This document shows positions 26,225 through 38,275 of a DNA stretch of 64,000 nt, piece after piece. Source of the stretch: an uncultured Gammaproteobacteria bacterium (GTDB taxonomy: Bacteria; Pseudomonadota; Gammaproteobacteria; UBA6429; Thiohalophilaceae); assembly GCA_913064945.1 (NCBI GenBank), contig CAJYAN010000002.1, positions 248,001 to 312,000 of the forward strand. The letters run 5' to 3'. The first letter of the stretch is position 1; every line of letters starts with the position of its first letter. Under the pieces are notes generated by a model, which made no database searches, had not been told where the DNA came from, and worked only from the letters and a program-made list of their open reading frames with translations. The translations under genes were made by a program, and so were the position numbers.

Positions 26225-26319
26225 GCTACTAAGCCTCTACACTTGATACTTATTATCGATATAAAGTGTATCCAGAGGAGGGGACACGTCCCCTCCAATG
26301 ATACGGGAGTTTACGTTGT

Positions 26320-28985: not shown

Positions 28986-30242
28986 TTAGCTGGCAGCCTT
29001 TTCAGCCTGACGCTCAAACCACTTTTCGGCTTCCTCGTCCCAACCATCCATACGGACGTAAGAACTTTGGCGTGGGCTACTGATCATGTTCGGATCAACT
29101 TCGACGCCGACGCCTTCAAGGAAATTCACCAGACCAATACGCTCAATCATTTCACCTGTACGCTCATGTTCGAGGGCGTTTTCAGCGAAGAAATCGATAA
29201 CTTCTGATCCGAGTTCAACCAGTTTTTCGTAATCTTCAGCAGTTTCAAGCTTCATGAACGGTACAATAACTGTACCCATCAGGTCACCAATCTTCAGAGT
29301 ACGCTTACCACCGATCAGGATAGTCACACCACGGTCATCACCAGGTGTTAGTGCCTTGGTCATAACATTCAGACAATGCATACAACGAACACAGTTGTGG
29401 TTGTCGACAGTGAGGGTATCGTCGTCATTCAAGGTGATACAGTTAGTCGGGCAACGTGAAGTGACGTTGTCGATAATGTAGTCACGACCCTTGGCTTCGA
29501 TAAAGGCCTTAACTTCAGCCTGGTCGATGACCATGTCGTCGCGCCATGTGCCGATAACCGCAAAGTCAGAGCGCTCAATGGCATTCTGGCAATCGTTTGG
29601 ACAACCTGAAACCTTGAACTTGAACTTATAGGGCAGTGCAGGGCGGTGAACATCATCAGTAAATGTGTTTACCAGGTGACGCTGAATCGCATGCTCATTC
29701 GCACAGGACTGTTCACAGCGGGCCGCACCCACACATGACATGGCGGTACGGACACATGGACCGGCACCACCTAAATCCCAACCATACTCATTGATTTCAT
29801 CAAAGAAATGCTGAGTGCCTTCAGTCGTGGTACCGATGAACATGATGTTGCCGGTCTGGCCGTGAAAAGTCACCATACCTGAACCGTATTTTTCCCAGCT
29901 ATCAGCCAGTTGGTTCAACATCGCAGTACTATAGTAGTTACCTGCTGGAGGTTGTACACGCAGAGTGTGGAATTCTTTTGATTCCGGGAAGGCATTACCT
30001 ACTTCCGAAAAGCGTGGAATAATACCACCGCCATATCCGAAGACGGAAACGGTACCACCTTTCCAGTAGCCCTTGCGTGTTTCGTAAGAATGTTCGAGCT
30101 GACCCAGAAGTGAGTTGGCCATCTCGTTGATGCGTTTTTCGGGGTGTTGATCACGCATGCGTTTGAAACCTGAAATAAAACTAGGCCATGGGCCCTCTTC
30201 CAAGACATCTAGCATCGGCGTCGGATGAATCTTTTTATCCAT
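28986..30242 (-). CDS. dsrA: Reverse dissimilatory sulfite reductase, alpha subunit
   Basis: A 418-residue siroheme subunit. Siroheme/[4Fe-4S] cysteines lie in CVGAARCEQSC and CPNDC, and the ferredoxin domain has CPTNC and CVRCMHC. I place the start at the ATG at 30242 (MDKKIHPTPM), because it has a strong AGAGGAGA ribosome binding site and gives the length known for DsrA. The open frame extends 21 codons further, but without family similarity. First gene of the cluster; its 5' region holds paired palindromic sites. Confidence 0.97.
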   Translation of the reverse strand: MDKKIHPTPMLDVLEEGPWPSFISGFKRMRDQHPEKRINEMANSLLGQLEHSYETRKGYWKGGTVSVFGYGGGIIPRFSEVGNAFPESKEFHTLRVQPPAGNYYSTAMLNQLADSWEKYGSGMVTFHGQTGNIMFIGTTTEGTQHFFDEINEYGWDLGGAGPCVRTAMSCVGAARCEQSCANEHAIQRHLVNTFTDDVHRPALPYKFKFKVSGCPNDCQNAIERSDFAVIGTWRDDMVIDQAEVKAFIEAKGRDYIIDNVTSRCPTNCITLNDDDTLTVDNHNCVRCMHCLNVMTKALTPGDDRGVTILIGGKRTLKIGDLMGTVIVPFMKLETAEDYEKLVELGSEVIDFFAENALEHERTGEMIERIGLVNFLEGVGVEVDPNMISSPRQSSYVRMDGWDEEAEKWFERQAEKAAS

Positions 30243-30466
30243 TGACGTTCTCCTCTGAGAAAGTTTCGCTGTAGTTAGCCGGCAAAAAAACATAAATCGT
30301 GCCACTGATTTTCACCCCGAAGGGTATCCAAACGGTGACTTAGTTGAAGCTGCGTGAAGTCTAGGAGGACTTTTGCAGATGTAGAACCACACTAATGGGG
30401 TGAATCTGCCATCCAAGTGTTACCCACAAAGGGATATACACCCAACTAAAACGCTATGCTCCATTT

Positions 30467-30644: not shown

Positions 30645-30678
30645 GCAAATAGTAATTCTGTTTACTTTGGTGACACGA

Positions 30679-31611
30679 ATGCGTAATGCCCGTTCTCAAA
30701 ATACGGTATCAGTGAGTCCTTTTGACCTGGCGGCACGTCAGGCCTACTTGAATTGGCGTGAGGCCAAGTTGCGCCTTTTCCCTGAAAATATTGATGCCAT
30801 TAAGGTCCCTATCACTAATCCACGCCAGCTGCGGCCAGCAGAGCGTGAGCGTATCATCCATCATTGTCGATCTGTCAGCATGGCTATATATAGTATGGAC
30901 TCCAGTGGCTGTAGCAAGGCGGACCTGGTCCAGTTTAGCCGACAGCTGGGTCTCCATCGGCTGGACGGTAATCTCTGTGCCGATGAGGATAAGATTACCA
31001 CTCTACAGGTGGTGGAGGCCGGTCGTCATAGCACCTATATTCCATACACCAATAAGCGCCTGAGCTGGCATACTGACGGATACTACAATCCACCCGAGCG
31101 TCAAATTCGAGGCATGCTTTTGCACTGCGTGGAAAATGCGCTAGAAGGGGGCGACAACCAGCTTCTGGACCCTGAGTGGGCCTATATTCACTTGAGAGAT
31201 GAAAATCCTGCCTATATATCGGCATTGATGCATCCCAAAGTCATGACGATTCCCCCGAATACGGCCGAGGGCGATGAATTGAGAGGCGAGCAGACGGGAC
31301 CGGTGTTTTCCATCATGTCAGATAACCACTCACTGCATATGCGTTATTCGGCGCGGACTCGCAATATCGCCTGGCGTGAAGATAGCGTGACTCAGGAGGC
31401 TCGGGCCTGCTTAACCGAATTCCTGGCCAGTGATAGTCCGTATATTTTTCAATACCGCCTGCAGCCGGGTGAGGGGGTGATAACGAATAATGTCCTGCAT
31501 AACCGTACTAGCTTCAAGGATGAAGTCGAGGACAAACACAGGTTACTATACCGCGCTCGATATTATGACAGGATTGCAGAGACAGAATTGTCTACTTTGA
31601 TAACCGTTTAA
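30679..31611 (+). CDS. TfdA/TauD-family Fe(II)/2-oxoglutarate dioxygenase
   Basis: About 310 residues. The metal triad is visible: H-x-D in SWHTDGYYN, a distal histidine in VLHNRTSF and an arginine for 2-oxoglutarate in RLLYRARYY. The family hydroxylates taurine, butyrobetaine and similar compounds; the substrate here is unknown. I choose the ATG at 30679; upstream in-frame GTG and TTG codons exist and no start has a clear ribosome binding site. It is the first gene of the unit divergent to dsr. Confidence 0.85.
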   Translation: MRNARSQNTVSVSPFDLAARQAYLNWREAKLRLFPENIDAIKVPITNPRQLRPAERERIIHHCRSVSMAIYSMDSSGCSKADLVQFSRQLGLHRLDGNLCADEDKITTLQVVEAGRHSTYIPYTNKRLSWHTDGYYNPPERQIRGMLLHCVENALEGGDNQLLDPEWAYIHLRDENPAYISALMHPKVMTIPPNTAEGDELRGEQTGPVFSIMSDNHSLHMRYSARTRNIAWREDSVTQEARACLTEFLASDSPYIFQYRLQPGEGVITNNVLHNRTSFKDEVEDKHRLLYRARYYDRIAETELSTLITV

Positions 31612-31628
31612 CGAAATGGAAGAAAACA

Positions 31629-31814
31629 ATGCTTTGGTTGAGTGAAATCTTATTACAGGAACATGATCTCAATTCATTTGATGAATTGCAGGTAAAAGTG
31701 AAAGAGCGTGCGCGGGCAGGTGAAATGTTTTTTCGTATGGATGTTAAACCTCCCTTTGCGGATACGCCGGCTGATTGGGAAGAGCGACTGGAAGCCGTCT
31801 TTACCTCTAAATAA
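31629..31814 (+). CDS. Small acidic protein in the dsr-linked unit
   Basis: A 61-residue protein with no family that I recognise. It looks like two helices, with a charged centre (KVKERARAGEMFFRMD). A GGAAG ribosome binding site lies 7 bases before the ATG and the gene fits tightly between its neighbours (17-bp and about 23-bp gaps), so it is very likely real. No cysteine and no signal peptide. Confidence 0.65.
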   Translation: MLWLSEILLQEHDLNSFDELQVKVKERARAGEMFFRMDVKPPFADTPADWEERLEAVFTSK

Positions 31815-31837
31815 ATTAACCCCAGGTGGTGTTTAAC

Positions 31838-32527
31838 GTGTTTTGGTCAGAAAATAGCGAAAATACAGATGTTTTTGTCATTCCAGAGGATGTCATGGAC
31901 GTCGTCTTTGCACTTAAATGCAAGACGCTACCGGTGGAGCATGCCTATGCCTTATCCACCGCAATGCAGCAGGCCTTACCCTGGTTGACAGCTGAAGCGC
32001 ACGCGGGTGTGCATCTTATTCATGTTGCCGAGTCGGGTAATGGCTGGATGCGGCCGGAAGATACCGCACACGGTGTTCTCCATCTCTCGCGACGCACCAA
32101 GATGACACTGCGTCTGCCCAAAGAACGTATAGAAGAAACCAAACGTGTACTCGTCAATGAAACATTTGATATCGATGGTCATGCCTTAACGATCGGTGAA
32201 GCAACCAATAAGCCGTTTACAGCATTGCCGACCCTGTTCTCACGTTATATCGTGACGCAGGAAGCACATGACGAAATGGCATTCATGCACTGGGCCGGCG
32301 CACAGTTACAGGGTCTGGATATTCCGGTAAAAAAAATGATGGCCGGTCGTCAGCATGCTTTTAAGACCCCGGAGGGACCGATTTTTACCCGTAGCCTGAT
32401 GGTCGCGGAGCTGGAGCCGGAGCAGTCGATTCGCTTGCAGCAGAATGGTCTGGGAACGCACCGTACCATGGGGTGTGGTCTGTTTGTCCCGCAAAAGGGC
32501 ATCAAGGCCGTTAATTCCGACGAGTAA
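31838..32527 (+). CDS. Cas6/Cmx6-like RAMP-superfamily protein
   Basis: About 229 residues resembling the Cas6 protein type called Cmx6 (type I-MYXAN). The C-terminal glycine-rich RNA-binding loop GLGTHRTMGCGLF is the clearest sign. Two ferredoxin-like halves fit the rest, with basic residues and histidines in between. Cas6 enzymes cleave CRISPR precursor RNA at a hairpin base, but no cas gene or array is in the window. The GTG at 31838 has an AGGTGG ribosome binding site; an upstream GTG at 31826 would add four residues. It lies in one unit with a DsrC-like gene. Confidence 0.75.
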   Translation: MFWSENSENTDVFVIPEDVMDVVFALKCKTLPVEHAYALSTAMQQALPWLTAEAHAGVHLIHVAESGNGWMRPEDTAHGVLHLSRRTKMTLRLPKERIEETKRVLVNETFDIDGHALTIGEATNKPFTALPTLFSRYIVTQEAHDEMAFMHWAGAQLQGLDIPVKKMMAGRQHAFKTPEGPIFTRSLMVAELEPEQSIRLQQNGLGTHRTMGCGLFVPQKGIKAVNSDE

Positions 32528-32562
32528 AACAAAACTTTTCAACAAGATCATTTTCTGGTCTA

Positions 32563-32578
32563 ATTAGCGCCCGCTAAT
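32563..32578. promoter_or_regulatory. Palindrome between cas6-like and dsrC-like genes
   Basis: ATTAGCG-CC-CGCTAAT is a perfect 7-bp inverted repeat with a two-base centre, 59 bases before the dsrC-like ATG. The short centre suits a protein-binding DNA site better than an RNA hairpin. Confidence 0.4.
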
Positions 32579-32586
32579 ATTTGGAT

Positions 32587-32609
32587 CGTGATCAGTGGGG
32601 CTGATCGCG
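32587..32609 (+). other. RNA hairpin upstream of the dsrC-like gene
   Basis: CGTGATCAG, loop TGGGG, CTGATCGCG: nine pairs, one a G-U wobble, with a five-base loop. It lies between the cas6-like stop and the dsrC-like start, without a T-tract. Cas6 proteins recognise hairpins of this general size, so it could be a processing or binding site; that link is inference. Confidence 0.45.
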
Positions 32610-32636
32610 CAATAAATTATTGATGAGGATTACAAC

Positions 32637-32975
32637 ATGGCACTTGAAGTAAATGGTCAGACTGTAGCAACAACCGATAATGGCTTTCTTGAGAATTTTC
32701 TAGACTGGAATGAAGATATTGCCAAGGTACTGGCGGCAGGTGAAGGGATTGAAATGACTCAGGAGCATTGGGACGTGGTCAATTACCTGCGTGATGAGCA
32801 CATCAATAACGGCGGTAATGAGCCGAACGAACGTACCATCCTGAAAGACATGGGCAAGAAATGGGGTAAAAAGGTTTCCTCCAAGGATATGTACCTGATG
32901 TTTCCACTCATGCCCTCCAAACAGGGTCGTAAGATTGCGGGTCTGCCACAAAGTACGCGTAAAGGTGGCTACTAA
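32637..32975 (+). CDS. DsrC/TusE-family protein lacking both redox cysteines (RspA-like)
   Basis: A 112-residue DsrC homologue: VNGQTVATTDNGFLENFLDW and MTQEHWDVVNYLRDE match DsrC along its length. The C-terminal arm reads KQGRKIAGLPQSTRKGGY. Arginine (R98) replaces the first redox cysteine and the penultimate cysteine is missing; the protein has no cysteine at all. It cannot carry sulfur. Cysteine-free members have been named RspA (regulatory sulfur-related proteins) in the literature. Good AGGATT-type ribosome binding site. The true dsrC is at 26320. Confidence 0.88.
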   Translation: MALEVNGQTVATTDNGFLENFLDWNEDIAKVLAAGEGIEMTQEHWDVVNYLRDEHINNGGNEPNERTILKDMGKKWGKKVSSKDMYLMFPLMPSKQGRKIAGLPQSTRKGGY

Positions 32976-33107
32976 GCCGGTAATATAGGCCAAAGGGGGT
33001 ATAGAGGGGGCTTATAGCCCATGCTATATTTCCGCCTGATTTGTCATTGAGCGCCCTGAAATTTAGGGAAAGATTTTTTAATCAAGTACATACAAGAGGT
33101 ATTTGAT

Positions 33108-33311
33108 ATGGATAAGCAAGAAAAAATTAAGAAAATGCTGGAAATGCAAAAGATGTTTATTGCATATGAACGCGAACATGGTGTTGAAGCCGAAGATTAT
33201 TTCGTTGGCCAGGAAGGTCATGCCTTACACAACTATCGTCAGGAGTACGCGAGACTGGCAATGGAAGTGGTCGATATGGCGCACGAAGAAAAAGGTTCTC
33301 ACCGCAACTAA
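33108..33311 (+). CDS. Small charged helical protein in the dsr-linked unit
   Basis: A 67-residue protein that I do not recognise. It is mostly helical and rich in Lys, Glu and Met, with VGQEGHALHNYRQEY in the middle. The ATG has an AAGAGGT ribosome binding site 8 bases before it. A second open frame over the same bases (33103-33360) runs into the terminator and is a shadow. Last gene of the unit; a strong terminator follows within 20 bp. Confidence 0.65.
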   Translation: MDKQEKIKKMLEMQKMFIAYEREHGVEAEDYFVGQEGHALHNYRQEYARLAMEVVDMAHEEKGSHRN

Positions 33312-33327
33312 GCGATGTTTGAACGAT

Positions 33328-33360
33328 AAAAAAGGCCACGTTGAGTGGCCTTTTTTTTAA
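33328..33360 (+). terminator. Rho-independent terminator
   Basis: AAAAAAGGCCAC, loop GTTGA, GTGGCCTTTTTTTT. The perfect GC-containing stem with A and T flanks ends the five-gene unit. The A-tract on the other side lets it serve the opposite strand too, if transcripts arrive there. Confidence 0.93.
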
Positions 33361-33411: not shown

Positions 33412-34086
33412 TTAAATCTCCGCCCACATGCGAACCAGATTGACGTAACTGACATCGATTTTTCGGGTTTCCTCCGCGGCGGGATTTTCCCTGAGCATGG
33501 TATCTCTGGCCGTACCGAGATCGTATAAAAGTTCGCGCCTGGCGGCATCACGAATCATGCTTTGTGTCCAGGTTACCGCGACGATGCGCTCTCCCGAGGT
33601 CACCTCCGTGACATGGTGCAGACTGGCGGATGGATACACCACGGCTGAGCCAGCATCGAGTTTGGTTTTTTGTTCGCCAAAGGCGGTTCGTACTACCAGT
33701 TCGCCGCCTTCATATTCGTCGGGGGCGTTAAGAAAAATCGTGATCGAGACATCCGATCGATATTGGGCACCAGGTGGCCCCATTACGGGATCATCGACAT
33801 GGTCGCCATAGGTCATACCTTGTCGATAACGTGCATAAAAGGGCGTCGCTACCCGATGCGGAAAAGCGGCGAGCTGGAAACCGGGATGCTTCAGCAGCGA
33901 GCCCATGACGATCTGATTGAGCTGTTGGTGACGATCGGCGTCCTGTGCAAGCTCTTCATTATTTTTTACTTTTTTAGCGAGCATGCCGGCGGAGCGTTTT
34001 CCATCGACGAATTCCGCATCCTGTAATAGCTTTCGCACTTCTGAAAGCTGGTGGGGGGTGAGTACATGGGCAATGGTGATCAGCAT
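33412..34086 (-). CDS. PKHD-type Fe(II)/2-oxoglutarate hydroxylase (PiuC/YbiX-like)
   Basis: A 224-residue dioxygenase resembling PiuC/YbiX. Metal ligands are in YGDHVDDPVMG (H-x-D) and LHHVTEVTSGER (distal His), with the 2-oxoglutarate arginine in ERIVAVTW. In other bacteria the family is linked to iron uptake receptors; no such receptor is adjacent here (the TonB receptor at 8653 is far away). Single gene with its own promoter. Confidence 0.88.
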   Translation of the reverse strand: MLITIAHVLTPHQLSEVRKLLQDAEFVDGKRSAGMLAKKVKNNEELAQDADRHQQLNQIVMGSLLKHPGFQLAAFPHRVATPFYARYRQGMTYGDHVDDPVMGPPGAQYRSDVSITIFLNAPDEYEGGELVVRTAFGEQKTKLDAGSAVVYPSASLHHVTEVTSGERIVAVTWTQSMIRDAARRELLYDLGTARDTMLRENPAAEETRKIDVSYVNLVRMWAEI

Positions 34087-34170
34087 AGGAAACTGTCTCT
34101 ACATGTTAGTTATAGGTACAATGGTATAAGTGTGTACTACCAATATCCAATTTAATTTGAAGGTTGTTTC

Positions 34171-34494
34171 ATGATACTCAATGTTTTTGCCGGTGAAGAT
34201 GCCATTCCCGTGACAGTCCCTGATGAGGTACTAATTGAAGCGGAACCCTTTTTTAGCAAAATGGATAAGGACCTTGATGCGGGCTGGCAAATGAGTCGTG
34301 ACTGGATCGAAAACCTGAATACACTACAGCGTTGCCAGGTCGCCGCTGACCGGCTATTAACCGCCCTGGAGACCGAGAATCGCGCCATGGCTGCCATGAT
34401 GGCGGGTTACATTATCAATAAGATTCCCGGTATAAAAGAAATTCATATCGACACGACGGGCGATATGCAACAAACCGAAATCCTTGTAAAATAA
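34171..34494 (+). CDS. Conserved hypothetical protein, 107 residues
   Basis: I do not recognise the family. The N-terminal part is a strand-rich stretch with FAGEDAIPVTVPDE, the middle is helical and the C terminus has GYIINKIPGIKEIHID, which may form a small alpha/beta fold. Cytoplasmic, one cysteine. It lies 19 bp before the HPP gene and is probably co-transcribed with it. Confidence 0.55.
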   Translation: MILNVFAGEDAIPVTVPDEVLIEAEPFFSKMDKDLDAGWQMSRDWIENLNTLQRCQVAADRLLTALETENRAMAAMMAGYIINKIPGIKEIHIDTTGDMQQTEILVK

Positions 34495-34513
34495 ACCAAA
34501 AAGAAATCGCCGT

Positions 34514-35068
34514 ATGAATACACTACTAAAAAGTTATTTTGGAAAAATGCGTGGCGGGAAACATTGTCCGCCACGTGCACCGATTGGTGAAATGATATGG
34601 TCAACGATCGGTGGCATTCTTGGCATTGGCGCTGTTTATATTGCGAGTAACAAGCTGGATCTTGCTCTAAGTGATTACATATTTCTGATCGGATCATTTG
34701 GCGCATCTGCGGTATTACTGTATGGCATTCCTTTGAGCCCTTTTGCGCAGCCTCGAAATGTCATTGGTGGTCACGTATTCTCTGCAATTGTCGGTGTCAC
34801 ATTCTATACTTTGTTATCAGGCCATATCGGTCTGGCGGCAGCCCTGGCAGTAGGGTTTGCGATTGGTGCTATGCATCTAACACGTACGCTGCATCCACCT
34901 GGTGGTGCAACTGCACTTATTGCGGTTGTCGGCAGTCAGCATGTGCACGAATTAAGTTACTGGTATGTGCTGGCACCTGTAATGGTAGGTGCCAGCCTCA
35001 TGGTACTGGTTGCAGTGATTGTCAATAACCTGGCGAGTAGTCGACATTTTCCTGAATACTGGTGGTAA
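34514..35068 (+). CDS. HPP-family integral membrane protein
   Basis: A 184-residue inner membrane protein with four to five helices and the diagnostic LHPPGGATAL near residue 135. PRAPIGEMIW near the N terminus is also typical. HPP proteins have been tied to nitrite transport in plants and cyanobacteria; the bacterial role is not settled. Its stop lies 1 bp from the convergent GNAT gene. Confidence 0.88.
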   Translation: MNTLLKSYFGKMRGGKHCPPRAPIGEMIWSTIGGILGIGAVYIASNKLDLALSDYIFLIGSFGASAVLLYGIPLSPFAQPRNVIGGHVFSAIVGVTFYTLLSGHIGLAAALAVGFAIGAMHLTRTLHPPGGATALIAVVGSQHVHELSYWYVLAPVMVGASLMVLVAVIVNNLASSRHFPEYWW

Positions 35069-35069
35069 G

Positions 35070-35522
35070 TTAAGTCAGTAGTTCTTTATACAATTCTGTA
35101 TGCGTTATCTGTCCATACAGCGTTGGTCCTTTACCACGCTGTCGATAACCATGCTGCAGGTAAAAGGCCACGGCTGAATCACGGGCATTCAAGATTAATC
35201 GGCGATACTGTTTTTGTAACGCAGCTTCTTCCAGCGCCCGCAAGAGACGACTGCCGATCCCCTGTGATTGTTCCTCTGGGCATACTGCCATGTAGCGGAT
35301 CTGGCCGAGCCTGTGGCCCGGGGAGTGTAGTCGACCGACCCCGATTACATGGTCGTTTTCATTGATGGCCATTATATGGAAGGCGCTGGATTCAAACTCA
35401 TCCTGTTCGCTGCCTTTTGGCTGTTGCCACGGGGCACGCAGTAGCTCCCAGCGCAGCTGATAATAACGTGCAAAGTCGTTACGGCTAGTGGGCGTGCATA
35501 GTTGTACCGATGTTATCGACAT
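35070..35522 (-). CDS. GNAT-family N-acetyltransferase
   Basis: About 150 residues with the acetyl-CoA-binding motif Q-x-x-G-x-G in EEQSQGIGSRLL, preceded by the strand IRYMAVCPE. The C-terminal YLQHGYRQRGKGP is the usual domain end. I prefer the ATG at 35522 over the in-frame TTG at 35537. Substrate unknown. Confidence 0.85.
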   Translation of the reverse strand: MSITSVQLCTPTSRNDFARYYQLRWELLRAPWQQPKGSEQDEFESSAFHIMAINENDHVIGVGRLHSPGHRLGQIRYMAVCPEEQSQGIGSRLLRALEEAALQKQYRRLILNARDSAVAFYLQHGYRQRGKGPTLYGQITHTELYKELLT

Positions 35523-35537
35523 GACTCGGTTGCTCAA

Positions 35538-35849
35538 AATGGCTATTGTTGAGATTGATACGTATCGCTCTGGATGGAAGGCCTACGTATGTGCAGTCGG
35601 TTGCGTTGACGCTTGACCTGCCGGTCTCCTGACGGTGATTCATATCAATAATGTCCAGCTTGCAGGACAATTTTCGGTGATAGTATCGTCGTTGAGCCGA
35701 AACTTTTCACGGATATCTTTATGGCATTGCACGAACCGTCATGACGTAACCTGGTGTATCCCGACATCTATTAGACCGGTGCGCTGAAACGTCATCGATC
35801 GTGCGCTGGTGCCGTAACACCGCAGCGCAGCTAACACATCCGCACAGAC
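35538..35849. other. Intergenic stretch without gene
   Basis: This 312-bp gap separates two minus-strand genes. I see no credible ORF, RNA gene or strong hairpin. It should carry the promoter of the GNAT gene. Confidence 0.4.
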
Positions 35850-36449
35850 TCAGGCAAAGACGACCCAGGTGGTGGCAATGTATTTAACGCCGTCGTTGAG
35901 CGTCGCCGCGCGGTGTTCGTGGGTCCAGAAGGGAGGAAACAGGACCAGTTTGCCTTGCTGCGGAGTGATTTTTACATCCTGGTAGAGAAACTCAGTCTCT
36001 CCACCCGGGCCAGTAACGTCGTTTAAATACCAGATGGCGACCAGCTGACGCATGGCAAAATCATGACTGCCGCCATCGATGTGCCAGTGATAGTATTCTC
36101 CCGGATTATAACGCTGGATACCGTAACCCATATCCTTGAAGGGACCCTTGAAGTAGGGAAAGGTCTCACGAAACTCGATAATGGCTCGACCGAGTGATTG
36201 AAACAGGGCACGGTCAATGTCTTTCCAGTGTTCCTTACCGCTGACCACCAGGTCAGTCGTCTTTTTAATACCGCTGTCCTGATTAACTGTTTGTCCAAGA
36301 CGACCGGCATATTGTTCCTCGCTGTGTTGTTCAAAGCGACGGATCATGTCCTGACACAATGCCTCGGGTAAGGCGTTGTGTTTTTCGTAGATAAAGGTAT
36401 TCGCTTTGACTTCCCGGATACTGTTTAAGGGCGTAATGATCTTTTCCAT
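35850..36449 (-). CDS. 2OG-Fe(II) oxygenase (prolyl hydroxylase-like)
   Basis: A 199-residue dioxygenase with H-x-D in YYHWHIDGGSHD and the distal histidine in WTHEHRA, followed by AATLNDGVKYIATTW. The LVAIWYLNDV and GGETEF segments match the prolyl 4-hydroxylase superfamily. Target unknown. It is the third Fe(II)/2-oxoglutarate enzyme within about 6 kb, and the gene follows the 348-residue gene by 42 bp. Confidence 0.85.
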   Translation of the reverse strand: MEKIITPLNSIREVKANTFIYEKHNALPEALCQDMIRRFEQHSEEQYAGRLGQTVNQDSGIKKTTDLVVSGKEHWKDIDRALFQSLGRAIIEFRETFPYFKGPFKDMGYGIQRYNPGEYYHWHIDGGSHDFAMRQLVAIWYLNDVTGPGGETEFLYQDVKITPQQGKLVLFPPFWTHEHRAATLNDGVKYIATTWVVFA

Positions 36450-36491
36450 GTGAGGCGTGACATCTTATGTGGTGGGGTAATGCAAATTGTC

Positions 36492-37538
36492 TTATAGACG
36501 ACGGCACTCTATCAAGTCTTCGAGGGCTTTTATCTCAGTGGCAACGGTTGGTGGGGAGAATTGCTGACAAATTTCTTCGGTCAGGTGTTGCCAGTGCTGC
36601 TGGTCTTGGGCAATTTCATCATAAAAAAGGTCATCCTGTTGATGGACTTGCCAATGACGATAGGCCTGGAGCAGCTTCGGGTAAAGATGTTTGCGCATAT
36701 TGCTTAAATTGGCGATATAGAAGTGAATGGCAGCCTTATTCTGACGCTGCATCAGATTCGGCAGGGTAGAGAGGGCATCGGCATAGTGATCGCGAACAGC
36801 ACGCAACATCAATTCGGTTCTGGCCAGAGGGATATTGATGATCAGGTCCTCCCACTGTGGTCCAAGTAGCCTGCCTGCCATGATCTCACCAACTTCATGG
36901 TCAAGGACGGTCTGTAGCTCTGTCTCTGTCATACGTTCGAGCGCCTCGATGGCGTTATCAGCGAAACCATATTCCTGCAGGGACAACACCAGGGCTGATT
37001 TATCTTTATGCCAGCCAGCCTCTTCGCTCTTTTCCCACAAAAAGCGTTTTAGCGATTCACGACGTATGTAGATTGTTTTGTCGCTTGACATGGCCGGAGG
37101 CGCGCTCAGGTCGCGGGCATATTCCTCGGCCGAGACCAGTATCTGGTAATCTTCTACCAGCTCTCGCCGCTCCAGGCGGGCCAGGAAAAAATGGGCCTTG
37201 GCCTGATAGCCCAGACCGCCGCTATAGACCAGTTTTTCCTGATTCAGTGCGGCATTGATGTTGGCGTTGTCATAGGGGTCAAATTGTGTCTGGTTAATGG
37301 TCAGGGGTTCATAGTGATCGGCTTCCATCTCACCCCAAAGCGCCTCGCGCTCCCGTAGCCAGTTACCGACGTCTTCCTTGGAAAGAGGGGAGCCGAAGGG
37401 GTAGCGATTTTCCCAGCGATAATATTCACGCATTTTCATCAAATATATGCACAGTGTATAGTCACCCGCATGATGGGCATCCGAGATATGACAGTTTTTT
37501 TGTACTGTCGCCTGTAACTGGGCAAGTGAGTTGTTCAT
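36492..37538 (-). CDS. Conserved hypothetical protein (possibly Sfum_1244 family)
   Basis: A 348-residue cytoplasmic protein rich in aromatic and acidic residues. It has an N-terminal segment with CIYLMKMREYYRWEN and a central LDHEVGEIMAGRLLG in which the His-Glu pair could bind metal. The overall look recalls a family named after Syntrophobacter Sfum_1244; I am not certain. No signal peptide or membrane span. Probably in one transcript with the downstream oxygenase. Confidence 0.55.
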   Translation of the reverse strand: MNNSLAQLQATVQKNCHISDAHHAGDYTLCIYLMKMREYYRWENRYPFGSPLSKEDVGNWLREREALWGEMEADHYEPLTINQTQFDPYDNANINAALNQEKLVYSGGLGYQAKAHFFLARLERRELVEDYQILVSAEEYARDLSAPPAMSSDKTIYIRRESLKRFLWEKSEEAGWHKDKSALVLSLQEYGFADNAIEALERMTETELQTVLDHEVGEIMAGRLLGPQWEDLIINIPLARTELMLRAVRDHYADALSTLPNLMQRQNKAAIHFYIANLSNMRKHLYPKLLQAYRHWQVHQQDDLFYDEIAQDQQHWQHLTEEICQQFSPPTVATEIKALEDLIECRRL

Positions 37539-37723
37539 AACGACAATGATACCCGTTGTTGTTAAAGAGGTGTGGCGTGTCTGTATCCAAACACATTAAC
37601 CTAGCAAAATACTATACTAATTATGCTAGCATGAGGATAAAATTCCTGCTAGTGTGACGCCTTCTATGGCAACAATTAACTTTAATAAACTGTAGTAACT
37701 TATTGATAAGAGGCATATTTAAA

Positions 37724-38275
37724 GTGCGAGTAAAAAGTAAGTGGAGCAAAAAGGACAAGACGCATAGTGTAGAAGAAATTGGCGGTGCGCTGGCATTTAT
37801 CGCCTGGCGTATAGGACAAAATATCCTACTGTCGATGGAAAATAACGATTACCAGACGGATACCCAGTTACAACGCCTGAATATTATTGAAGAATTGTTG
37901 GCTTTTACCATCCATATTATTGACCGTATGACCATTGAGAGATTTTCTGATGAAGACCGGCAACGTTTTATGACTGAGCTGGTCATGAAGACCGCCAAAC
38001 ATATGGAAGATAACAAGCGGGATATCATTGGACCTGGTGAGTACAAGCAGTCGTATATTGATCTTGTCAATCAACGCATGAATGACTATGCCGATTTTAA
38101 TTATGATGAGGAAAGCGGCGGTCCCAGTTTTCCCATGAGGCGCTTTTTTGGCGATCGTGTCGCCGTGCAAATGGGTGAAAAAAACCGCAAATGGGTGGCA
38201 GACCAGATGATTGAAGTCGAGGCACCTGAAATTCTAGATGCGCTGAAAAAAGCCGTACCGAATCTTTTTATGTAA
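37724..38275 (+). CDS. Conserved hypothetical protein, 183 residues
   Basis: I do not recognise the family. The protein is helical, with an amphipathic middle (EELLAFTIHIIDRMTIERF). The sequence GPGEYKQSYIDLVNQRMNDYADF suggests a conserved folded domain. I place the start at GTG 37724, because ATAAGAGG lies about 11 bases before it; the open frame begins at a TTG inside that signal. It ends at a bidirectional terminator shared with the Rmf-like gene. Confidence 0.6.
   Translation: MRVKSKWSKKDKTHSVEEIGGALAFIAWRIGQNILLSMENNDYQTDTQLQRLNIIEELLAFTIHIIDRMTIERFSDEDRQRFMTELVMKTAKHMEDNKRDIIGPGEYKQSYIDLVNQRMNDYADFNYDEESGGPSFPMRRFFGDRVAVQMGEKNRKWVADQMIEVEAPEILDALKKAVPNLFM

Follow-up and report, generated by a model that had tools for sequence, protein, structure and literature searches.

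A Cas6-family protein and a cysteine-free DsrC paralogue in a conserved gene set beside dsrA of sulfur-oxidizing Gammaproteobacteria

We analyzed a stretch of 64,000 nucleotides (hereafter the window; C2:248001-312000, contig CAJYAN010000002.1) from the 3.2 Mb genome of an uncultured gammaproteobacterium of the Thiohalophilaceae, in which a five-gene unit encoding a Cas6-family protein lies head to head with dsrA, the first gene of the dsr operon (28986..30305, reverse strand; open reading frame (ORF) matching TIGR02064, E = 9.4e-186). The unit, on the forward strand, encodes a TauD/TfdA-like 2-oxoglutarate Fe(II) dioxygenase (30679..31611, with an ATG at 30679 and a longer TTG start at 30667; PF02668, E = 1.6e-20); p61, a 61-aa protein of no known family that is widely conserved within the unit (31629..31814); the Cas6-family protein (31826..32527; PF09559, E = 3e-63), with a GNGW loop, a candidate catalytic H39 and a glycine-rich loop at about residues 208-218; a cysteine-free paralogue of DsrC with the tail RKGGY (32637..32975; PF04358, E = 7e-31); and p67, a 67-aa protein of no known family (33108..33311). 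Behind p67 stands a terminator hairpin (33334..33358, forward strand; GGCCAC-GTTGA-GTGGCC-T8), which is visible by eye and was not listed by the hairpin pattern scan of the window, probably because its stem continues into the T tract. The ORFs and family scans thus agree with a first-pass annotation, made from the sequence alone, that had described five genes divergent from dsrA, among them Cas6-like and cysteine-free DsrC-like genes, and a terminator after the fifth. The tight spacing it also described holds for the first three genes (gaps of 17 and 11 bp) but not for the last two, which follow gaps of 109 and 132 bp.

The gene order is not unique to this genome; uniqueness would have spoken against the annotation. 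PF09559 was found in 33 of 58 relatives, and in the loci obtained for 30 of these (several of which end at contig ends) the oxygenase gene was present in 28, p61 in 27, the DsrC-like gene in 27 and p67 in 26. A collection with one genome per species held at least 548 relatives of the Cas6 protein; among the best 80 of these, with sufficient flanking sequence, we found TauD in 57/67 loci, p61 in 63/67, the DsrC-like gene in 65/69 and p67 in 45/69, with dsrA upstream on the opposite strand in 45/52 and all five genes plus dsrA in 28/45. Among these best 80 are Thiohalobacter thiocyanaticus (L070), Thioalkalivibrio denitrificans (L072), Thiothrix fructosivorans (L085), Thiohalocapsa halophila (L112) and a symbiont of Solemya; the selection is biased to near relatives, and some entries are contigs of other loci already counted. 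To counter this bias, we sampled 274 genomes evenly across the class Gammaproteobacteria, of which 91 have Cas6, and examined the loci of all 91. Here too, where flanks sufficed, the Cas6 gene has regular neighbours: TauD in 56/77 loci, p61 in 64/77, the DsrC-like gene in 63/84, p67 in 39/82, dsrA upstream on the opposite strand in 57/71, and TauD, p61 and the DsrC-like gene together in 40/70. Thus comparison shows that p61, the cysteine-free DsrC paralogue and the TauD-like oxygenase regularly accompany Cas6, together with either p67 or a tetratricopeptide repeat (TPR)-like protein described below, and many sulfur oxidizers carry the set with Cas6 and the cysteine-free DsrC paralogue divergently from their principal genes of sulfur oxidation. 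In two other families (genomes G513 and G540), a Cas6 gene and a DsrC paralogue ending in GKGGY adjoin dsrA, a TauD-like gene lies further along, and p61 has no match beside these loci; the G513 Cas6 lacks the GNGW insert, as apparently does that of G540, and the G540 DsrC paralogue contains a single cysteine, outside the tail. No fusion between unit families was found among 950 matching ORFs.

The tie to dsr, which the first-pass annotation had proposed to examine by co-occurrence, proved very close. A genome of the class sample was counted as dsrA-positive at a best E < 1e-30, chosen to exclude sulfite reductases (the dsrA profile matched 164 of the 274 genomes at E ≤ 0.001, and 87 above its curated cut-off). 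On this basis Cas6 occurs in 91 genomes, dsrA in 94 and Cas1 in 105; Cas6 and dsrA occur together in 87, Cas6 alone in four, dsrA alone in seven and neither in 176 (Fisher's exact test, 1.9e-57, which ignores kinship). In 66 of the 91 genomes both genes are on one contig, and in 65 of these 66 they lie within 6 kb of each other on opposite strands. Ten of the 11 discordant genomes are interrupted there by contig ends. In all four Cas6-only genomes (L140, L163, L177, and L184) the contig ends inside the TauD frame or within about 0.35 kb upstream, that is, on the side expected for dsrA; in five of the seven dsrA-only genomes (G106, G115, G146, G242, and G273) it ends in dsrA or less than 0.4 kb upstream, and in G159 the contig ends within the TPR-like gene, after TauD and p61. 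Only in G246 (86% complete) does the dsrA copy lack an adjacent unit. Some dsrA-positive genomes have their Cas6 gene away from the unit, as in L201 and L202, where it lies near apparent rnc, era, and recO genes (ORFs named by reading). The Cas6 (PF09559) family behaves as a sulfur-oxidation gene in the gammaproteobacterial sample. Six genomes (G118, G191, G182, G091, G231, and G253) have two dsrA copies and a single PF09559 match, so that at most one dsrA copy adjoins a unit in them. We also examined 20 dsrA genomes of other classes, of which four have the order dsrABEFHCMKL and 16 the order dsrAB-dsrL.

We found no corresponding tie to clustered regularly interspaced short palindromic repeats (CRISPR). 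The counts of genomes with both genes, the first only, the second only and neither are 43/48/62/121 for Cas6 and Cas1 and 44/50/61/119 for dsrA and Cas1, so the Cas6 gene is tied to Cas1 as weakly as dsrA is. None of the 91 loci (5 kb on each side, or to the contig end) contains CRISPR-like exact repeats or a match to Cas3 or Cmx8 (cas7 was not among the queries); accordingly, the CRISPR array and nearby cas3/cas8 that are required of type I-MYXAN were absent from all of them. The window's genome has a separate type I-F system with Cas1f, Cas3f, Cas5f, Cas7f, and its own Cas6f (L218:496-1191, L214), and a repeat-rich stretch in this genome resembles the array of that system. An accessory role in CRISPR was considered and rejected on these grounds: there are no repeats, Cas3 or Cmx8, there is no special tie to Cas1, and the genome has its own Cas6f. 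Since the protein co-occurs with dsr, lacks a CRISPR context, and shares its genome with a separate I-F Cas6f, it is bound to reverse-dsr and is not a CRISPR part; comparison thus shows a Cas6-family protein outside a CRISPR context as part of the gammaproteobacterial reverse-dsr locus.

By sequence and predicted fold the protein belongs to the Cas6 family. The window copy matches TIGR02807 (Cas6/Cmx6) at 127.2 bits (cut-off 98.85); its predicted structure is confident (predicted local distance difference test score, 88.2), and the top structural matches are Cas6 proteins, the best being 8fcj_B, the Cas6 of a type I-B CRISPR-associated transposon (CAST), with Z 24.2, root mean square deviation 2.2 and 199 aligned residues; 8fcj is also the top match by sequence profile (E = 7.3e-22). 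We aligned 89 unit Cas6s (two of the 91 were shorter than 190 aa and were left out) with a comparison set of five CRISPR-type Cas6s, all from cyanobacterial plasmids and one (L118) without an annotated cas neighbour. In this last case (L118:3974-4765, a Gloeobacter plasmid) the Cas6/Cmx6 gene has as neighbours a cupin gene and one of the PAPS-reductase family, while no cas gene is annotated there, which is likewise an unusual setting for a Cas6. H39, in the first helix at what we take to be the position of the catalytic histidine known from other Cas6s, is kept in 88/89 unit Cas6s and in 5/5 CRISPR-type ones; the glycine loop is kept as well (G208 in 88/89, G210 in 86/89, G216 in 87/89, and G218 in 89/89), as are R96 (89/89) and R140 (86/89). 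The unit Cas6s thus share with CRISPR Cas6/Cmx6 (PF09559, TIGR02807, 8fcj) the family, the Cas6 fold, the glycine-rich loop and the candidate catalytic histidine. They differ from them in their co-occurrence with dsr, in having no repeats, Cas3 or Cmx8 nearby, in being mostly acidic to neutral, and in a GNGW insert, a loop not present in the CRISPR Cas6s compared, in which W74 is invariant (89/89), as is R90 (89/89). They also form a separate branch: all five CRISPR-type sequences are on the same side of a branch supported at 100/99, in a tree whose bootstrap had not settled and in which one comparison sequence is a long branch.

The second characteristic protein of the unit is one of six DsrC-family proteins in the window's genome. 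It matches both PF04358 and TIGR03342, and its nearest solved structure is 1yx3; it ends in STRKGGY and has no cysteine, whereas the true dsrC product ends in TGCV. The tail RKGGY was found in 25/25 aligned unit paralogues (27 less L008, which is cut, and L025, which has an in-frame stop), and of 124 distinct proteins chosen by the ending KGGY, 115 are cysteine-free and nine have one cysteine in the last 105 residues. The penultimate cysteine, which is said to be strictly conserved in DsrC (PMC3397948), is absent from the unit paralogue. For these proteins, sulfur transfer by known DsrC chemistry is excluded: they resemble the DsrC/TusE/DsvC carriers (PF04358, TIGR03342) in sequence family, but without the redox cysteines and with RKGGY in place of TGCV they could not carry a persulfide in the DsrC way. 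Cysteine-free DsrC-like proteins were reportedly described by Venceslau et al. in 2014 as RspA, with a proposed regulatory role, a name that we did not find in the literature searched; the unit paralogue would resemble RspA in being DsrC-like without redox cysteines, and we know of no Cas6 partner described for RspA. Two papers mention additional DsrC-like genes: as relay proteins, one of them numbered near the dsr cluster of Thiodictyon syntrophicum (PMC5944118), and as four additional DsrC-family genes of Allochromatium vinosum, which are left open (PMC3368242). The other DsrC paralogues of the window's genome listed at L002, L003, L005, and L006 end in KGCS, RGWSTG or TGCV, or, in one case, lack a tail cysteine. 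In one relative (G015, L025:992-1348; also L038) the paralogue is broken by an in-frame stop, either real or an assembly error.

Of the remaining parts, the oxygenase has the iron ligands H134, D136, and H277, which are invariant in 24/24 aligned sequences (four of the 28 were short and were left out). Its nearest relatives are TmpA and gamma-butyrobetaine dioxygenase, with which it shares PF02668 and the HxD...H iron site of the TauD/TfdA proteins; its score with the TmpA model is 59.9 bits, where the equivalog cut-off is 400. The window copies of p61 and p67 had no match in the family scans; among five further copies, the p67 of L011 gave a sub-threshold Pfam match (DUF1561, E = 1.2e-4) and the rest E ≥ 0.07, and searches of p61 and p67 against solved structures gave no significant relative (best E = 0.049 and 2.2). 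In 34 of the 91 class-wide loci (also L067:9285-9989), a gene between p61 and Cas6 encodes a TPR-like protein of about 235 aa. Two copies had no significant Pfam match; its structural model is confident and all-helical, and no PDB match fell below E = 0.001, the weak ones being mostly TPR proteins. p67 and the TPR-like protein are nearly exclusive: 44 loci have p67 only, 33 the TPR-like protein only, one both and 13 neither. Placed on the Cas6 tree, the two labels change 9-10 times, of which well-supported branches force only 1-2. From this pattern the two may be functionally interchangeable. Distant TPR-like relatives (L235:3538-4209 and L243:5071-5733; 53 and 42 bits) also lie near dsrAB-dsrL loci without Cas6 in two of the 20 genomes of other classes, and the protein may be tied to dsr more widely.

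Conserved elements stand in two intergenic regions. The divergent region between dsrA and TauD (elements at 30358..30438) contains AGTCTAGG (30358-30365), ACCACACTAATGGGGTG (30386-30402) and TTACCCACAAAGGGATATA (30420-30438). Among the 55 corresponding regions in relatives, 25 contain AGTCTAGG, with 0.1 expected from shuffles; a TGGGGTG block follows 20-24 nt beyond it in 35/55, and a TAYCCC-N4-GGGRTA palindrome is frequent in the region, though not enriched genome-wide (14 sites, vs. 19 for a control pattern). The gap between the DsrC-like gene and p67 holds a promoter-like element (32990..33030, forward strand), composed of CCAAAGGGGGTATAG (32990-33004) and TGCTATATT (33022-33030); its operator-like half, CC-N-GG-GATATRG, recurs in 47/55 relatives by a loose pattern (alignment of 10), with a -10-like box 18-21 nt away in 27/39, a spacing without a shuffle control, and it partly resembles the dsrA-TauD elements. 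The conserved k-mers at first looked hairpin-like and were considered as an RNA element or Cas6 target; they were reread as promoters or operators because of their near-constant layout with a -10-like box, their strand asymmetry and their ordinary folding energies. We infer that both sets of elements are regulated promoters or operators, a reading that would link p67 with the dsr regulon, and probably the unit too. Because a promoter-like element precedes p67, a single transcript reaching p67 is doubtful.

A possible place for an RNA event is the dsr transcript itself. The window has a stable hairpin after dsrC (26277..26296, reverse strand), a Cas6 substrate by conjecture only, and the dsrC-dsrM gap has a folding z below -2 in 28 of 42 unit-bearing relatives. 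A post-dsrC hairpin with a score of at least 14 was found in 32 of 46 unit-bearing dsr operons vs. 0 of the four operons without Cas6 from other classes; the median z is -2.42 with the unit and -2.13 in those four, and a hairpin after dsrC also occurs in some dsrA-positive, Cas6-negative genomes of the class, most of which end at dsrA and so give no control. In A. vinosum, transcripts of dsrEFH and dsrC are reported above the dsrA level (PMC3397948), and an additional promoter is reported for dsrC (PMC3368242); the higher transcript levels fit RNA processing, but also the extra dsrC promoter.

The first-pass annotation had suggested a sulfur-responsive RNA regulatory module. The conserved, dsr-linked unit of a Cas6 and a DsrC paralogue stands; that it is sulfur-responsive and RNA-regulatory is a hypothesis, and any sulfur response could not use DsrC chemistry, since the paralogue lacks both redox cysteines. 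The mechanism we tentatively prefer, unproven and at rather less than an even chance, is that Cas6 binds or cuts RNA for dsr expression, steered by the DsrC look-alike. The Cas6 protein would still bind, and probably cut, cellular RNA, most likely the polycistronic dsr mRNA or another sulfur-metabolism transcript; the DsrC paralogue would be a look-alike that carries no sulfur and docks on a partner of DsrC (DsrAB, DsrEFH or another) and so link what happens to the RNA with the condition of the sulfur pathway; the adaptor would be the TPR-like protein or p67. A more specific form, in which sulfur oxidizers have domesticated a Cas6 endoribonuclease solely to control the reverse-dsr operon after transcription, by cutting dsr mRNA (e.g., at the post-dsrC hairpin), steered by a cysteine-free DsrC decoy that senses the sulfur loading of real DsrC and its partners, with TPR-like protein and p67 as interchangeable adaptors, we consider unlikely as a whole.

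Several observations weigh against an RNA role. The unit Cas6s have a median isoelectric point (pI) of 5.99 and a median net charge of -5, whereas the five CRISPR-type proteins range from 9.3 to 9.6 in pI and from +6 to +9 in charge; 7/89 unit Cas6s have a pI above 8, and the Cas6f of the window's genome has 8.65. With the positive charge mostly lost, an RNA role is not to be assumed. Asparagine replaces H39 in three genomes (L032 and L034, of one genus, and L180); the CAST Cas6 8fcj also has asparagine at the aligned residue, which shows that not every family member has the histidine. No sequence-conserved RNA element was found, the conserved intergenic elements resembling promoters instead, and folding is ordinary, with median z vs. 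shuffles of -0.89 in the DsrC-like/p67 gap, -0.25 in the Cas6/DsrC-like gap, and, for the dsrA-TauD element, -1.03 on one strand and -0.87 on the other. Rfam gave no matches in the window at gathering scores, and three weak ones in three loci, none near the gathering score. The post-dsrC hairpin is fixed in position and variable in sequence among relatives, and two of the four dsr operons without Cas6 also reach z < -2 after dsrC. Finally, PF09559 was found in none of the 47 dsrA genomes in a sample of 249 genomes of other classes, so dsr as such does not require Cas6.

The main rival turns the loss of charge to account: the Cas6 fold would be a protein-binding scaffold with no action on RNA, which assembles, matures or protects a Dsr complex jointly with the DsrC paralogue and either p67 or the TPR-like protein. 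The new invariant W74 in the GNGW loop, the DsrC fold of the neighbour and the predicted helical-repeat nature of the alternative partner, with its weak matches mostly to TPR proteins, are all consistent with such a scaffold; the retention of H39 (88/89), R96, R140 and the glycine loop argues against it, as do 19 alignment columns with a basic residue (K, R or H) in 80% or more of the unit Cas6s, and we regard it as somewhat unlikely. Control at the level of transcription, in which the DsrC paralogue would bind DNA and regulate the dsr promoter while Cas6 plays an accessory part, would draw on the conserved dsrA-TauD elements and the partly similar one before p67, and on the statement, made with reference to other work (PMC5944118), that DsrC of A. 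vinosum binds DNA upstream of dsr. We think it quite unlikely, given that the paralogues are acidic (median pI 5.2), that the palindrome is not enriched genome-wide, and that the regular Cas6 neighbour is left unexplained.

There is a slimmer chance that the unit modifies RNA: Cas6 would present tRNA or rRNA to the TauD-like oxygenase, and the DsrC paralogue would dock in the manner of TusE. That member of the DsrC family acts in tRNA modification (PMC3397948), so that the earlier picture of Cas6 and DsrC as belonging to opposite worlds was overstated, and the oxygenase has invariant iron ligands; yet its closest relatives act on small molecules, in 21 of 77 loci no copy of it turned up within 3.5 kb, and the paralogue has no cysteine for sulfur transfer. 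Passive hitch-hiking, with unrelated genes kept together by slow rearrangement of the dsr region, could explain why genes for a YbiX-like protein, p107 and W37703 are often nearby too (26, 23 and 20 of 35 loci). It strikes us as very improbable, since Cas6 and dsrA are present or missing together, even where the two are not adjacent (L201, L202), and adjoins dsrA together with a DsrC paralogue in the two further families (G513, G540). To the idea that the protein processes CRISPR RNA for a type I-MYXAN or other CRISPR system in these genomes, which its above-cut-off match to TIGR02807 might suggest, we give almost no credence, in view of the 91 loci without CRISPR-like repeats, Cas3 or Cmx8, the lack of a special Cas1 tie, the genome's own I-F system with Cas6f, and the position of all five CRISPR-type sequences on one side of the 100/99 branch.

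The combination matches no kind of system known to us or found in the literature searched, and the parts that could be assigned are all of known families. A dsr-linked Cas6 was not described in that literature, which covered the topics Cas6, DsrC, dsrA, and RspA, was chiefly open-access and was represented mostly by titles. The finding concerns at least 548 stretches, from one genome per species, that encode a relative of this Cas6, the window copy of which matches an NCBI model naming a CRISPR protein. It raises the question of how a CRISPR RNA-processing fold is used in energy metabolism, and of how control is exerted over the dsr operon, whose pathway is a key one in the sulfur cycle; it also gives the cysteine-free DsrC proteins a defined neighbour, and thus a genetic handle. 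If the more specific, unlikely form of the RNA mechanism holds, a domesticated Cas6 would be a CRISPR-type RNA module serving metabolic control instead of defence.

Beyond the terminator, the window encodes a further group of proteins (33412-38275), namely the YbiX-like protein, p107, W35850, W36492, and W37703, whose genes lie near the unit in 26, 23, 19, 19, and 20 of 35 loci (20 kb). By contrast, W39546 and W40742 are near the unit in only 4/35 and 3/35 loci, though they also lie less than 10 kb away. The conserved dsr neighbourhood may therefore be larger than the five-gene unit.

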